Shown here piece by piece: positions 1,621 to 25,445 of a stretch of DNA of 29,870 bases (position 1 is the first letter of the stretch; every line of letters begins with the position of its first letter). Below the pieces are notes generated by a model, which saw nothing but the letters and a program-made list of their open reading frames with translations, was not told where the DNA came from and made no database searches. Source of the stretch: a virus. Position numbers and translations under genes: made by a program. The DNA lies in the IMG/VR virus record IMGVR_UViG_3300037485_000144, positions 1 to 29,870 of that record. One strand, 5' to 3'.

Positions 1621-1651
1621 CGATGTGTATAAAAAACAGGAGAATTTGAAC

Positions 1652-1723
1652 ATGTGGACTAAACCAGCAGCAACAGAGTTAAGATTTGGATTTGAAGTAA
1701 CTATGTACGTGATGAACAAGTAA
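1652..1723 (+). CDS. pqqA: PqqA, precursor peptide of the cofactor pyrroloquinoline quinone
   Basis: A 23-residue peptide beginning [11 protein letters not shown] and containing the diagnostic core [10 protein letters not shown], ending MNK. PqqA is the ribosomal substrate from which PQQ is made: PqqD binds it, the radical-SAM enzyme PqqE joins the side chains of one Glu and one Tyr, and later enzymes (protease, PqqB, PqqC) release and finish the cofactor. The reacting residues are present at the canonical spacing, Glu15 and Tyr19, and the length equals that of bacterial PqqA (22-29). A perfect AGGAG ribosome site (1638-1642) lies 9 bases before the ATG. It stands alone: no pqqBCDEF gene is in the window, so the product must use host enzymes. 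Inverted repeats flank it on both sides, suggesting its own transcription unit. Identification rests on sequence recognition and is strong; raising host PQQ supply is inferred. Confidence 0.92.
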
Positions 1724-1736
1724 TGTAAAATAGTCG

Positions 1737-1785
1737 CGACTTTTATTCAAAGTCGTTCAATAAAGTCGGGGGCGGTTAAGCCGAC
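1737..1785 (+). promoter_or_regulatory. Nested hairpins after pqqA (possible terminator or RNA switch)
   Basis: CGACTTT (1737-1743) can pair with AAAGTCG at 1749-1755 (5-nt loop) or with a second AAAGTCG at 1762-1768; the latter overlaps GTCGG (1765-1769), which can instead pair with CCGAC (1781-1785). These are mutually exclusive stems. The first follows the pqqA stop by 13 bases, so it may end the pqqA transcript, though no long U-run follows. Confidence 0.4.
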
Positions 1786-1893: not shown

Positions 1894-2298
1894 ATGACAT
1901 TCCTATCGATACCTTTTACGCCACGCGAGGTAAAAGCCACCGAATCGCGTTTACAGAAAATATACGACGCAGCCAAGCTGGGTCTGAAGAACGACTCATT
2001 GGCGCTTGCCGCCGGGATGTTGCCGTCCGAGTACCGGCAACTGTGCCAGCTAGACCCCGTGGCGGAGATGGCAGCGCAAAAAGGTAAAGCAGACGGTGAG
2101 CTGGAGATGGCCCAGGTGTTAATCAAGTCAGCCAAGGACGGTGACGCTAAGTCGGCGCTGGCCGTGCTACAGCATGCACACGCGTGGACGGCCAAGACCG
2201 AGATCAGTGTGGATGTGTACCAAAAGATAAGTATTACTCAGGCATTAGCCGAGGCTCAATCGCGTATCATTGAAGGCACCGTCGTAGACAACCAATAA
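1894..2298 (+). CDS. terS: Terminase small subunit (DNA-packaging recognition protein)
   Basis: 134 residues. Terminase small subunits form a ring that recognises the phage DNA packaging site and hands it to the large subunit. Here the N-terminal half (FTPREVKATESRLQKIYDAA, then LGLKNDSLALAAGMLPSEYR) looks like a helix-turn-helix DNA-binding unit; the middle and C-terminal part is helical and acidic (KADGELEMAQVLIKSAKDGD), fitting the oligomerisation region. The main support is position: its stop overlaps the terL start by one base (TAATG). There is no Shine-Dalgarno sequence before the ATG at 1894 and no other in-frame start close by. Family placement is from context plus layout, not a unique motif. 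Confidence 0.8.
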   Translation: MTFLSIPFTPREVKATESRLQKIYDAAKLGLKNDSLALAAGMLPSEYRQLCQLDPVAEMAAQKGKADGELEMAQVLIKSAKDGDAKSALAVLQHAHAWTAKTEISVDVYQKISITQALAEAQSRIIEGTVVDNQ

Positions 2299-3824
2299 TG
2301 CAACTACCTATATATAGTTCGGACGAAGAACAACTCCTTATGTCAAGGCTGTGGGATCCGCGTGTTGCGGACGACCCTGAAGCGTTCGTGCTGTTCGCGT
2401 TCCCGTGGGGCCAACCTAACACGCCATTGGCTAAGTTCAAAGGGCCACGCACTTGGCAGCGCGAGGTGTTAAGGACAATCGCCAAGCACATTAAGGACAA
2501 CCGAGGCGAGGTCGACATGTCGACACTGCGTGAGGCTGTCAGCTCAGGTCGGGGTATCGGTAAATCGGCACTGGTTAGCTGGCTAATACTGTGGATGTTA
2601 TCGACACGCATCGGCAGCAGTGTCGTGGTGTCAGCCAACAGTGAGTCACAACTAAGGTCGGTCACTTGGGGTGAGTTGACTAAGTGGCAGGCCATGATAA
2701 TAAACTCACACTGGTGGGAGATCAGCGCAACCAAGCTGGTGCCAGCGAAATGGGTGTGCGAGCTAGTGGAGCGTGACTTGAAAAAGGGTACGCGGTACTG
2801 GGCGGCAGAAGGTAAACTGTGGTCGGAAGAAAATCCTGACTCGTACGCCGGTGTCCACAACCACGACGGGATGATGTTGATATTTGACGAGGCAAGCGGT
2901 ATACCTGACACGATATGGTCAGTGGGCGCGGGCTTCTTTACAGAGAACATATTAGATCGGTATTGGTTTGCGTTTAGCAACCCGCGTCGCAACCAAGGGT
3001 ATTTCTTTGAGTGCTTTAACTCTAAACGGGACTTTTGGCATGGCAGACAAATTGATGCGCGACAGGTCGAGGATACGGATAAAGCGGTATATGAACAGAT
3101 TATTGCCGAGTATGGCGAAGACTCTGCACAGGCGCGGGTCGAGGTATACGGTGAGTTTCCATCGGCAGGCGAAGACCAGTTTATCAGCCCGATGGTTGTT
3201 GAGGACGCTTTCAAACGTGAGAGATATAAGGATACGACTGCACCTATCGTTATCGGGGTTGATCCAGCACGTGGGGGCGCAGACAGCACGGTCATCGTCG
3301 TGCGTCAAGGGCGTGACATCGTTGCCATCAAGCGCTATCAAGGCGAGGACACAATGACTGTCGTTGGGCGAGTGATTGAGGCGATAGAAGAATACAAACC
3401 AGTGATGACCGTCATCGACGAGGGCGGCCTGGGGTACGGGATATTGGACAGGCTAACCGAGCAGCGGTACAAGGTGCGCGGTGTGAACTTCGGGTCACGG
3501 GCTAAGAACTCGATAATGTGGGGCAACAAGCGGGCCGAGATGTGGGGCGCAATGCGGGAGTGGCTACGCAGTGCCAGCATACCGGAGGATAGGAAGTTAA
3601 AGTCTGACTTGACAGGCCCAATGAAAAAGCCTAACAGTAGCGGGACGATATTCTTAGAAGGTAAGAAAGAGATGAAGGCCAGGGGCATGGCAAGTCCGGA
3701 CGCAGCAGACGCGTTATGCGTGACGTTTGCGTTCCCAGTAGCCCATCGTGAATATGTTGACAAATCTCCGCGTAAGTCGTATGCTTCTAGTAGCGGAGCA
3801 TCCAGCTCTTGGATGGGTAGCTAA
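2298..3824 (+). CDS. terL: Terminase large subunit (packaging ATPase and headful nuclease)
   Basis: 508 residues with both canonical domains. The ATPase part shows Walker A SGRGIGKS (residues 83-90) and Walker B MMLIFDE (192-198, catalytic Glu198). The RNase H-like nuclease part shows the first acidic residue in VIGVDPARGGADST (Asp322), the second in TVIDEGGLGYG (Asp374), and a third in SPDAADAL (Asp468/471). The enzyme pumps DNA into the prohead through the portal and cuts the concatemer. Translation is coupled to terS through TAATG. Its own stop overlaps the next ATG the same way. Length is normal for P22/T7-type TerL. The long minus-strand open frames opposite this gene are shadows. Confidence 0.96.
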   Translation: MQLPIYSSDEEQLLMSRLWDPRVADDPEAFVLFAFPWGQPNTPLAKFKGPRTWQREVLRTIAKHIKDNRGEVDMSTLREAVSSGRGIGKSALVSWLILWMLSTRIGSSVVVSANSESQLRSVTWGELTKWQAMIINSHWWEISATKLVPAKWVCELVERDLKKGTRYWAAEGKLWSEENPDSYAGVHNHDGMMLIFDEASGIPDTIWSVGAGFFTENILDRYWFAFSNPRRNQGYFFECFNSKRDFWHGRQIDARQVEDTDKAVYEQIIAEYGEDSAQARVEVYGEFPSAGEDQFISPMVVEDAFKRERYKDTTAPIVIGVDPARGGADSTVIVVRQGRDIVAIKRYQGEDTMTVVGRVIEAIEEYKPVMTVIDEGGLGYGILDRLTEQRYKVRGVNFGSRAKNSIMWGNKRAEMWGAMREWLRSASIPEDRKLKSDLTGPMKKPNSSGTIFLEGKKEMKARGMASPDAADALCVTFAFPVAHREYVDKSPRKSYASSSGASSSWMGS

Positions 3825-4009: not shown

Positions 4010-4140
4010 AAAAATCATCTAGTAAAGAAGCCTTCCGTGCTAATGTTAAGGCTGAAATTGACGCTGGTAAGAAGCCAGCTCAAGCTGTCGCTATTGCGTA
4101 CTCTGTTAAACGTGAATCAACTAAAAAAGGCAAAAAATGA
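4000..4140 (+). CDS. Small lysine-rich phage protein (resembles DUF6496-type peptides)
   Basis: 46 residues starting MPLKKSSSKEAFRANVKAEI and ending RESTKKGKK. I recognise the pattern MPLKKGxSxxxxxxNxxxEMxAGKPxxQAVAIA as a common small protein encoded near terminase and portal genes in many podoviruses; here it reads AEIDAGKKPAQAVAIAYS. A GGATGGG ribosome site lies upstream within the previous gene. Its stop overlaps the groES start as ATGA. Highly basic, so nucleic-acid contact is possible, but function is unknown. Confidence 0.72.
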   Translation: MPLKKSSSKEAFRANVKAEIDAGKKPAQAVAIAYSVKRESTKKGKK

Positions 4141-4424
4141 AATTAAAACCTTTCGGTGAACGAATTGTAGTAAAGCAAAAAGAAGAAGAACTAACAACGG
4201 CCAGTGGCATTGTACTGGCCAAGCAAGCAGAGAAGAAGTTTGAAGGTGTGATTGTTGCAGCAGGCCAAGGCGCCATATTAGATAATGGCACGGTCAGAGC
4301 GATGACAGTTAAAGTAGGTGACACAATACTGTTCGGTGAGTATTCAGGACAGAAGTTTAAATACGAAGACGAAGACTATCTTCTTATGAACGAAAAAGAC
4401 GTGATCGGAATATTAAATGAATGA
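4137..4424 (+). CDS. groES: Co-chaperonin GroES (Cpn10), phage-encoded
   Basis: 95 residues, full length for GroES (about 97 in E. coli). GroES caps the GroEL ring during ATP-driven folding. Family marks are visible: the N-terminal strand KPFGERIVVKQ (residues 4-14), the mobile loop with the GroEL-binding tripeptide IVL in SGIVLAK (residues 23-29), the roof hairpin ILDNG (47-51), and the VKVGDTILFGEYSG block (58-71) followed by EDEDYLLMNEKDVIG. The intact loop implies it works with host GroEL; no groEL is in the window. It starts by ATGA overlap and ends overlapping the portal gene by 8 bases, so it is a late gene. P22 coat folding is known to involve GroEL/GroES in some mutants, which makes the phage coat protein the likely client (inference). 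Confidence 0.93.
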   Translation: MKLKPFGERIVVKQKEEELTTASGIVLAKQAEKKFEGVIVAAGQGAILDNGTVRAMTVKVGDTILFGEYSGQKFKYEDEDYLLMNEKDVIGILNE

Positions 4425-11185: not shown

Positions 11186-11698
11186 GTGAATACAAGTGGA
11201 ATATACGCGATAACCAATACAGCTACAAATAGCATGTATATTGGCTCTGCCGTAAATATATCCCGCCGATGGAGAGTTCACAAACATCACCTTGAAAAAG
11301 GCACCCACCACAGTAAACACTTACAAAACTCGTATGTAAAGCATACATCAGCAATGTTTAGCTATGAAATTATTGAGTTTGTAGAAGATAAAAATAATCT
11401 TTTAAAGCGCGAACAAGTTTGGCTAGACTTTTTTAAGCCTGCTTATAATAAAAGAAAACTAGCAGATTCTTGTTTAGGACTTAAAAGATCGGATGAAGCT
11501 AAAGCAAAAATGTCTGCCGCTCAAAAAGGCAAAAAACAATCGCCAGAAACTATTGCTAAACGGGCCGCAGCGCTTAGAGGAAAACCAAGACCTGCGCATG
11601 TAAGGGCAAAAATTAGCGCATCGCACATAGGCATTAGACCTTCCGAAGAAAGTAGGGTTAAAATGTCGATAGCTAAGAAAAAAGGAACTTTAAAATGA
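11186..11698 (+). CDS. Free-standing GIY-YIG homing endonuclease with NUMOD3 motifs
   Basis: 170 residues, starting with GTG and an AAGGAG ribosome site. The catalytic fold is clear: GIY at residues 5-7, YIG at 18-20, the conserved Arg in NISRRWRVH (27/28), and the Glu in the KREQVWLDFFKPAYN block. The C-terminal half has repeated NUMOD3-like DNA-binding modules, GLKRSDEAKAKMSAAQKG, a middle copy around SPETIAKRAAALRGKPRP, and GIRPSEESRVKMSIAKKKG. Such enzymes cut a cognate intron-less or gene-less allele and spread by repair; they are selfish insertions. It lies between a small structural gene and gp4, overlapping the gp4 start by an ATGA, so it is co-translated with late genes. No intron is evident. 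Confidence 0.92.
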   Translation: MNTSGIYAITNTATNSMYIGSAVNISRRWRVHKHHLEKGTHHSKHLQNSYVKHTSAMFSYEIIEFVEDKNNLLKREQVWLDFFKPAYNKRKLADSCLGLKRSDEAKAKMSAAQKGKKQSPETIAKRAAALRGKPRPAHVRAKISASHIGIRPSEESRVKMSIAKKKGTLK

Positions 11699-24568: not shown

Positions 24569-25210
24569 TTAAGTGTTACTAATAAATTCATTTAACTCCA
24601 CTTGCCCATGAGTTGACTTACCATAAATTAAATGAAATCTATTATGGCAAGTTTGACACAATGTAACCCCATTAGCTGGGTCGTTCCGCATACTAGGGTT
24701 AGTACTATATGGCTTTACATGATGTGCGTTTAGCTTAACAGTCGAACTACATTTGATACAGTAAGGCGTTTTTTGCTTAACCTCTCTTGCCCAAGCCGCA
24801 GTGGCGTTAGGGTTTTTAGGAATGTGTAGTTTACGCCTCATTTCATACTGCAAGCATCCGCACGATTTTGTATGATCTCGGCTTAACCTTAAATATGAAA
24901 CTTCGGTTTCTTTCCCGCAATCGCAACGACAATTCCATACTGCTTTACCTTTTTTTGTTCCCGCGTAATTAATAACCAGTAATCTGCCAAATCGTTTACC
25001 CTGTAAATCTATACGCCGGTAAGGATTATGTTTTAGGCACCCACATGATTTTGTTGTACCCATTAGCACATTATTTAGCGAGGCTTCAGTTTCATTTCCA
25101 CATGCGCATTTAAAAAGCCATTTATTTCTACCATAATTATCTTTACCCGATATTTTAATAGCTGTTAATTTTCCAAATACCTCACCTGTTACGTCTTTCG
25201 CTTTCACCAT
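24569..25210 (-). CDS. HNH endonuclease with two N-terminal zinc modules (homing type)
   Basis: 213 residues from ATG 25210, which has GGAG seven bases upstream; an ATG eight codons earlier lies further inside the DUF3310 gene. Two tandem zinc modules are seen: C35-x-C37 with SCGC (56-58), and C94-x-C96-x-C98 with SCGC (117-119), each preceded by a G-x-x-FGxL-type strand. The C-terminal HNH nuclease has C151-x2-C154, His163-His164, Asn180, C185-x2-C188-H189 and His193. This domain set is typical of mobile phage endonucleases that bind DNA by the zinc modules. It overlaps the 3' end of the DUF3310 gene by 29 bases, as if inserted at that gene's end. Confidence 0.9.
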   Translation of the reverse strand: MVKAKDVTGEVFGKLTAIKISGKDNYGRNKWLFKCACGNETEASLNNVLMGTTKSCGCLKHNPYRRIDLQGKRFGRLLVINYAGTKKGKAVWNCRCDCGKETEVSYLRLSRDHTKSCGCLQYEMRRKLHIPKNPNATAAWAREVKQKTPYCIKCSSTVKLNAHHVKPYSTNPSMRNDPANGVTLCQTCHNRFHLIYGKSTHGQVELNEFISNT

Positions 25211-25445
25211 ACTCAAACTCCATAAGCATTTCAATACAATGTATTGCTTTTTTTAAGTCTTCAATCCCGTTTTTATTACGAAACCTACTTACATACTTTA
25301 CTATAGTATGCTGACATGCGTCAAGATTATTTGCCATGCTATATTCCATTGGTTGTATAGCCATGTCAACGTAATGTGACCCATTCACTTGTTTTTGTAG
25401 CGCAGTCGCTTCTTCCATGTACATCTCTGTCATTCCGTCACTCAT
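25182..25445 (-). CDS. DUF3310 protein (phage nucleotide-kinase-like family)
   Basis: 87 residues. The family signature is complete: NGSHYVDMAIQPMEYSMANN, then DACQHTIVKYVSRFRNKNGI and EDLKKAIHCIEMLMEFEYGE (H-Y-x5-QP-x-E, then IVKYVSR-x-R-x-K-NG-x-EDL-KA-H). DUF3310 proteins are widespread in phage early regions; some databases call them nucleotide kinase-like, but activity is not established. Its start overlaps the upstream gene by 8 bases (ATGAGTGA). The 3' end is overlapped by the HNH gene. Confidence 0.9.
   Translation of the reverse strand: MSDGMTEMYMEEATALQKQVNGSHYVDMAIQPMEYSMANNLDACQHTIVKYVSRFRNKNGIEDLKKAIHCIEMLMEFEYGESERRNR

Follow-up and report, generated by a model that had tools for sequence, protein, structure and literature searches.

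The cofactor PQQ is built from a precursor peptide, PqqA, in which PqqE, with PqqD as peptide chaperone, makes a Glu-Tyr crosslink, and PqqB and PqqC act later in the pathway (PMC9851590 and references therein). The family Methylophilaceae possesses pqq genes and carries 3-12 copies of pqqA, with the other pqq genes typically present as one set (PMC4109929). Viral pqqA has been described before. In 2020 a PqqA was reported from VP_266, a population of methylotroph phages in Lake Baikal that encodes a methanol dehydrogenase as well (PMC7678222), and pqqA is among the viral genes of reservoir sediments (PMC13188868, 2026). The first-pass annotation of the locus studied here knew of no established description of pqqA as a viral auxiliary metabolic gene, but these two reports show that the idea is not new. 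Phages of methanotrophs are known to carry pmoC (PMC7674155).

The window, the whole stretch of DNA analysed here, is a linear virus record of 29,870 bp and is a fragment. Its PqqA has the same length, core, Glu15/Tyr19 pair and ribosome site as the bacterial PqqA of the Methylophilaceae type. In contrast to the bacterial gene, the window copy is phage-encoded and stands alone just upstream of the terminase genes, without pqqBCDE.

The pqqA gene and its viral setting

Matches to PHROGs on the window contig include the portal, scaffold, major head protein, head closure, terminase, helicase and exonuclease, and these genes bear out the earlier reading that the contig is viral. The window is a real podovirus-like contig. 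The gene that follows pqqA (Table 1) had no family match, and in the related phage DSL-LC05 the ORF before the terminase large subunit is annotated as terminase small subunit.

Table 1. Coordinates of pqqA and of the features next to it in the window.
Feature	Position	Strand	Basis
Ribosome-binding site AGGAGA, 8 nt 5' of the pqqA ATG	1638..1643	+	sequence
pqqA coding sequence, 23 aa	1652..1723	+	PF08042, TIGR02107, relatives, pN/pS
Stem-loop CGACTTT-TATTC-AAAGTCG, 3' of pqqA	1737..1755	+	sequence; kept in relatives L002 and L007, lost in L005
Probable terminase small subunit, next gene 3' of pqqA	1894..2298	+	directly before the large subunit; DSL-LC05 counterpart
Terminase large subunit	2298..3824	+	phrog_2, E 4.6e-45

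The full-length gene of 23 codons called in the first pass is present exactly where it had been placed, opening with ATG at 1652 and closing with TAA at 1721-1723. The peptide scores about twice the curated cut-off in both PqqA models, with 43.1 bits against a cut-off of 21.1 (E 3.9e-11) in Pfam PF08042, a search that had been proposed as a check, and 39.4 bits against 20 in TIGR02107, the NCBIfam equivalog model for the PQQ precursor. An alternative in-frame ATG at 1565 would give 52 amino acids, but 1652 is preferred because the ribosome site and the relatives favour it. A sequence-based search returned no solved structure for the peptide. No convincing sigma-70 promoter was found at the window pqqA, and other viral copies are without a recognisable promoter, as are the host copies. 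The stem-loop downstream has an uncertain role as a terminator because the run of Ts belongs to the opposite strand.

Several conserved or repeated elements lie around the gene. Tandem repeats occupy 943-1366, 5' of the terminase genes, with units of 26 bp (AAATGACAATATTGCCAATGAATTCC), 7 bp (GCAGACA) and 11 bp (TTATTGCCATG), and some relatives have different repeats at this position. A conserved element at 1458-1522, containing GGGTAGGGCCTTGG and then an A/T run, lies ahead of the terminase genes in almost every relative, those without pqqA included, and is a candidate cos or pac site for packaging; pqqA is located between this element and the terminase genes in the window branch. The sequence at 1774-1835, between pqqA and the terminase small subunit gene, is conserved, with alternative stems possible (AAGCCGA/TCGGCTT and GTAACGC/GCGTTAC), and occurs in most close relatives, even those that have lost pqqA. 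Elsewhere in the window, 4137-4424 encodes a co-chaperonin GroES (PF00166, 98 bits), which is annotated in DSL-LC05 too, and the GIY-YIG/NUMOD3 and HNH endonucleases at 11186-11698 and 24569-25234 are probably homing endonucleases.

Conservation and loss in related phages

Relatives were chosen by the terminase large subunit and not by the pqqA motif, which gave 80 related viral contigs. Seventeen of these have at least 94% identity, and 14 of the 17 extend upstream of the terminase genes. The same pqqA ORF sits at the same position in 12 of the 14, from other metagenomes, which excludes a chance ORF and answers the short-ORF comparison among related phages proposed in the first pass. The ribosome site and the Glu15/Tyr19 pair singled out there are likewise preserved among related phages, and the two crosslinked residues, three residues apart (E-x-x-x-Y), are identical in the window and the 12 relatives.

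Loss of the gene takes two forms. In L005, the upstream region and ribosome site are kept and the ATG is directly followed by TAA; the remaining codons and the downstream stem-loop are gone, a clean loss of the coding region. In L017, the entire pqqA segment is missing. No PqqA was found among 25 lower-identity relatives (about 80-85%) searched over their whole records, many of which are fragments; as a positive control, the same search found PqqA in 30 of 30 pqqA-bearing records. By this distribution, pqqA is an accessory unit of one branch of the window phage group.

For the window and its 12 terminase-selected relatives (11 distinct sequences), pS was 0.41 and pN 0.019, giving a pN/pS of 0.045 for pqqA. 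In the same alignment, DNA identity collapses outside the interval from ATG to stop, both flanks having diverged, and the peptide is near-constant. By these measures pqqA is under strong purifying selection in the window branch, and since the peptide is almost frozen while its flanks diverge, it is neither a chimera nor a remnant.

Occurrence in other phages and in Methylophilaceae

When the window peptide was compared by tblastn with 50,697 phage records (E up to 10), 12 records matched. Nine are Methylophilales phage isolates (P19250A, Venkman, MEP301, MEP401, MEP402 and four Melnitz phages), one comes from an uncultured Manatee Spring podovirus, and two are Acinetobacter contigs. One of the latter, CAKLQF020000010.1 ('Acinetobacter phage MD-2021a'), has consecutive genes for pqqA, pqqB, pqqC, pqqD, a radical-SAM protein and ppk, and was set aside as bacterial chromosome DNA filed as phage, given pqqB, pqqC and pqqD beside pqqA; the second has the same record name. 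The real phages with PqqA in this collection are thus the nine isolates and the one uncultured phage. Other methylophages listed in the taxonomy (MEP431-434, HIM624-A and Venkman EXVC038S) gave no match and are perhaps not in the collection, and for this reason it is not claimed that all methylophages have pqqA. In the phage records inspected, pqqA was either unannotated or lay beneath a hypothetical protein on the opposite strand, and it is not mentioned in the main texts of the papers on Venkman, MEP301, MEP401/402 and Melnitz. Gene callers can miss a gene of this length, and so it has stayed unseen even in published cultured phages. With the Pfam and NCBIfam cut-offs passed, a fixed position in independent assemblies, purifying selection and homologues in cultured phages, the proposal that the peptide is PqqA holds, and 1652-1723 is, on sequence grounds, a full-length PqqA encoded by a phage.

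Scans of IMG/VR with DNA patterns returned at least 120 stretches, then 42 and 28 more; the patterns fix core residues, core conservation in the matches is not counted as evidence, and the counts are not a measure of prevalence. At least 207 viral loci with a PqqA ORF were found in 18 gene-content groups, an approximate number that comes from partial contigs and depends on clustering settings, and the group of the window has 15 members. This spread suggests that pqqA may have been repeatedly taken up and retained. Among the matches listed, Trp2 and Pro5, which lie outside the search patterns, are invariant in 208 of 208 viral copies, and a Shine-Dalgarno-like motif is found 5' of 207 of the 208. 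Between a viral copy and its best host counterpart the median DNA difference is 8%, three viral copies being identical in DNA to a host copy, and each of 30 viral records has exactly one pqqA. The gene often stands alone, and in almost all members of the Venkman group it is oriented against both neighbouring genes. A terminator-like hairpin follows 40% of the viral copies (2% when shuffled) and 87% of the host copies (3% when shuffled). Neighbouring pqqB-E genes are absent from the viral loci except for the bacterial contig filed as phage, and a complete phage pqq pathway was rejected as no pqqE scored over its cut-off in 50 pqqA phage records.

A second viral PqqA type, (W)(T/S)KPTY...RLGFEVTMYF, is represented by about 38 copies among the matches listed, some of them on contigs of 217 and 340 kb. 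Its pattern had no match in 369 genomes sampled from the class to which Methylophilus belongs. On a 72-kb viral contig (L119/L400, G019), pqqA lies about 6 kb from a quinoprotein dehydrogenase of the methanol/ethanol family (TIGR03075, 608 bits). Its immediate neighbour is a quinoprotein-associated SoxYZ-like carrier, and the surroundings include phage exonuclease and tail genes. This trio is a possible viral methanol-oxidation set.

For the host, a DNA pattern for the window-type core, in which position x admits any residue whose codon has T as its middle base (Leu, Met, Ile, Val or another), was scanned against 84,980 species with one genome each. It returned at least 119 loci, with Methylophilaceae names or in unnamed beta-, Nitrosomonadales or proteobacterial bins, and window-type pqqA was confined to Methylophilaceae or unnamed relatives among the cellular matches listed. 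The common host peptide is one conservative residue away from that of the window. Because this peptide type belongs to Methylophilaceae, the window phage very probably infects methanol-oxidising members of that family, a host assignment made from the gene type alone. The pmoC gene of methanotroph phages had suggested a methanotroph as the host, a reading dropped for the same reason. Ten Methylophilaceae genomes have 3-12 dispersed pqqA copies each, mostly with a terminator-like hairpin 3' of the gene, and these copies perhaps originate from exchange with phages. The PQQ enzyme of relevance is almost certainly the methanol dehydrogenase of the host. Of the methanol, alcohol and glucose dehydrogenases named in the first pass, the first is kept, and a generic alcohol or glucose dehydrogenase is almost certainly not the enzyme concerned.

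Proposed role and known systems

Our reading is that pqqA is probably a selected auxiliary metabolic gene of this podovirus-like phage, which would feed PQQ synthesis and sustain the methanol dehydrogenase of Methylophilaceae in infection. It has two of the marks of such a gene, being located in a viral genome and, as the alignments indicate, maintained by selection. One PqqA is spent per PQQ made, and extra precursor could, as the first pass suggested, raise the dehydrogenase capacity of the host. Multiplied by genome replication, the phage gene would be transcribed and translated during infection, host PqqD would bind the phage PqqA, and PqqE would crosslink Glu15 and Tyr19; host proteases, PqqB and PqqC would then complete PQQ from it. 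Among the pathway components, the phage would supply the only one that is spent, and the PQQ made from it would keep the periplasmic methanol dehydrogenase working for the length of a long infection in a host that is mainly methanol-fed. Continued dehydrogenase activity is a plausible need because the latent period is 17-20 h in the OM43 phages MEP401 and MEP402 (PMC10580990). The host lineage multiplies pqqA specifically, and the phages carry one pqqA and not the rest of the pathway. Together with the dehydrogenase and carrier on the 72-kb contig, these observations favour a supply role in methanol oxidation.

Some points weigh the other way. The gene is dispensable, as L005 and L017 are without it, and it has no recognisable promoter. 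Since the host has 3-12 copies, an extra one from the phage makes no difference unless phage copy number or host shut-off comes into play. Nor is PqqA necessarily limiting, because overexpression of pqqA and pqqB alone raises PQQ modestly, by 29% in Acetobacter (PMC7936290).

Loss in two relatives, the multi-copy state of the host gene and the three viral copies identical to a host copy are also what would be expected of a neutral passenger, with phages often recombining in one of the many dispersed host copies to no benefit. This is unlikely given the low pN/pS despite diverged flanks, the invariance of Trp2 and Pro5 among the listed copies although no pattern fixed them, retention in 18 gene-content groups and the single copy in each of 30 records. 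Small phage proteins are often inhibitors, and the peptide could in principle occupy PqqD/PqqE or act as a regulator, lowering host PQQ or serving another non-PQQ end. We consider such interference quite improbable, as a peptide that keeps both crosslinked residues and is one conservative residue from the common host peptide looks like a normal substrate and not a decoy, and as one phage contig adds a PQQ-using dehydrogenase itself. Short conserved host genes are frequent targets of phage integration, and a multi-copy gene such as pqqA could mark an attachment site; this very improbable reading was rejected because tyrosine integrase (PF00589) was found in none of 50 pqqA phage records and in 14 of 14 control genomes, and the median DNA difference from the best host copy is above what an att core tolerates. 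Fusion of host DNA at 1500-1900 to a phage contig, which the first pass had named as the finding that would undo its claim and which a single linear fragment might invite, is barely conceivable, being ruled out by 12 independent contigs with the same arrangement and homology on both sides, and the viral loci lack pqqB-E neighbours, apart from the misfiled bacterial contig.

With supply of the precursor as the preferred reading, the presence of pqqA in many unrelated phages suggests that phages may keep host methanol oxidation running during infection. On balance, we lean towards pqqA as a hallmark gene of methanol-oxidiser phages, taken up many times by unrelated phages, strongly selected, almost never annotated and acting as a psbA-like booster through a consumed substrate, with the RLGFEVTMYF type extending to another host group. 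In seas and lakes, methanol is consumed by abundant Methylophilaceae, OM43 and Methylopumilus among them. If carriage of the PQQ precursor is common in methylophages, infection may change methanol turnover; if the proposal is true, a phage supplies a cofactor's substrate peptide and not an enzyme. Cultured methylophage-host pairs make the function of pqqA directly testable.

Relative to earlier reports, the new elements are the phage lineage with pqqA, the extent of the gene (18 groups, cultured phages, mostly unannotated) and the evidence of selection. Also new are the confinement of pqqA, within the annotated collection, to phages of methylotrophs and the rejection of the chimera and attachment-site readings. 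The PqqA of VP_266, likened here by its description, was similarly put forward as an auxiliary metabolic gene in phages of methylotrophs, but VP_266 encodes a methanol dehydrogenase and the window does not. A stand-alone gene for a peptide 73-91% identical to that of the window is present in cultured methylophages with Methylophilales hosts (P19250A, Venkman, MEP301, MEP401/402 and Melnitz), which belong to other phage lineages and carry pqqA at other genomic positions. The pmoC of methanotroph phages is a work-alike without common ancestry, a phage copy of one part of host energy metabolism, and psbA of cyanophages is another work-alike, replacing a consumed part of the host energy machinery. 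Both of these encode an enzyme subunit, whereas pqqA encodes a cofactor precursor that is itself consumed.
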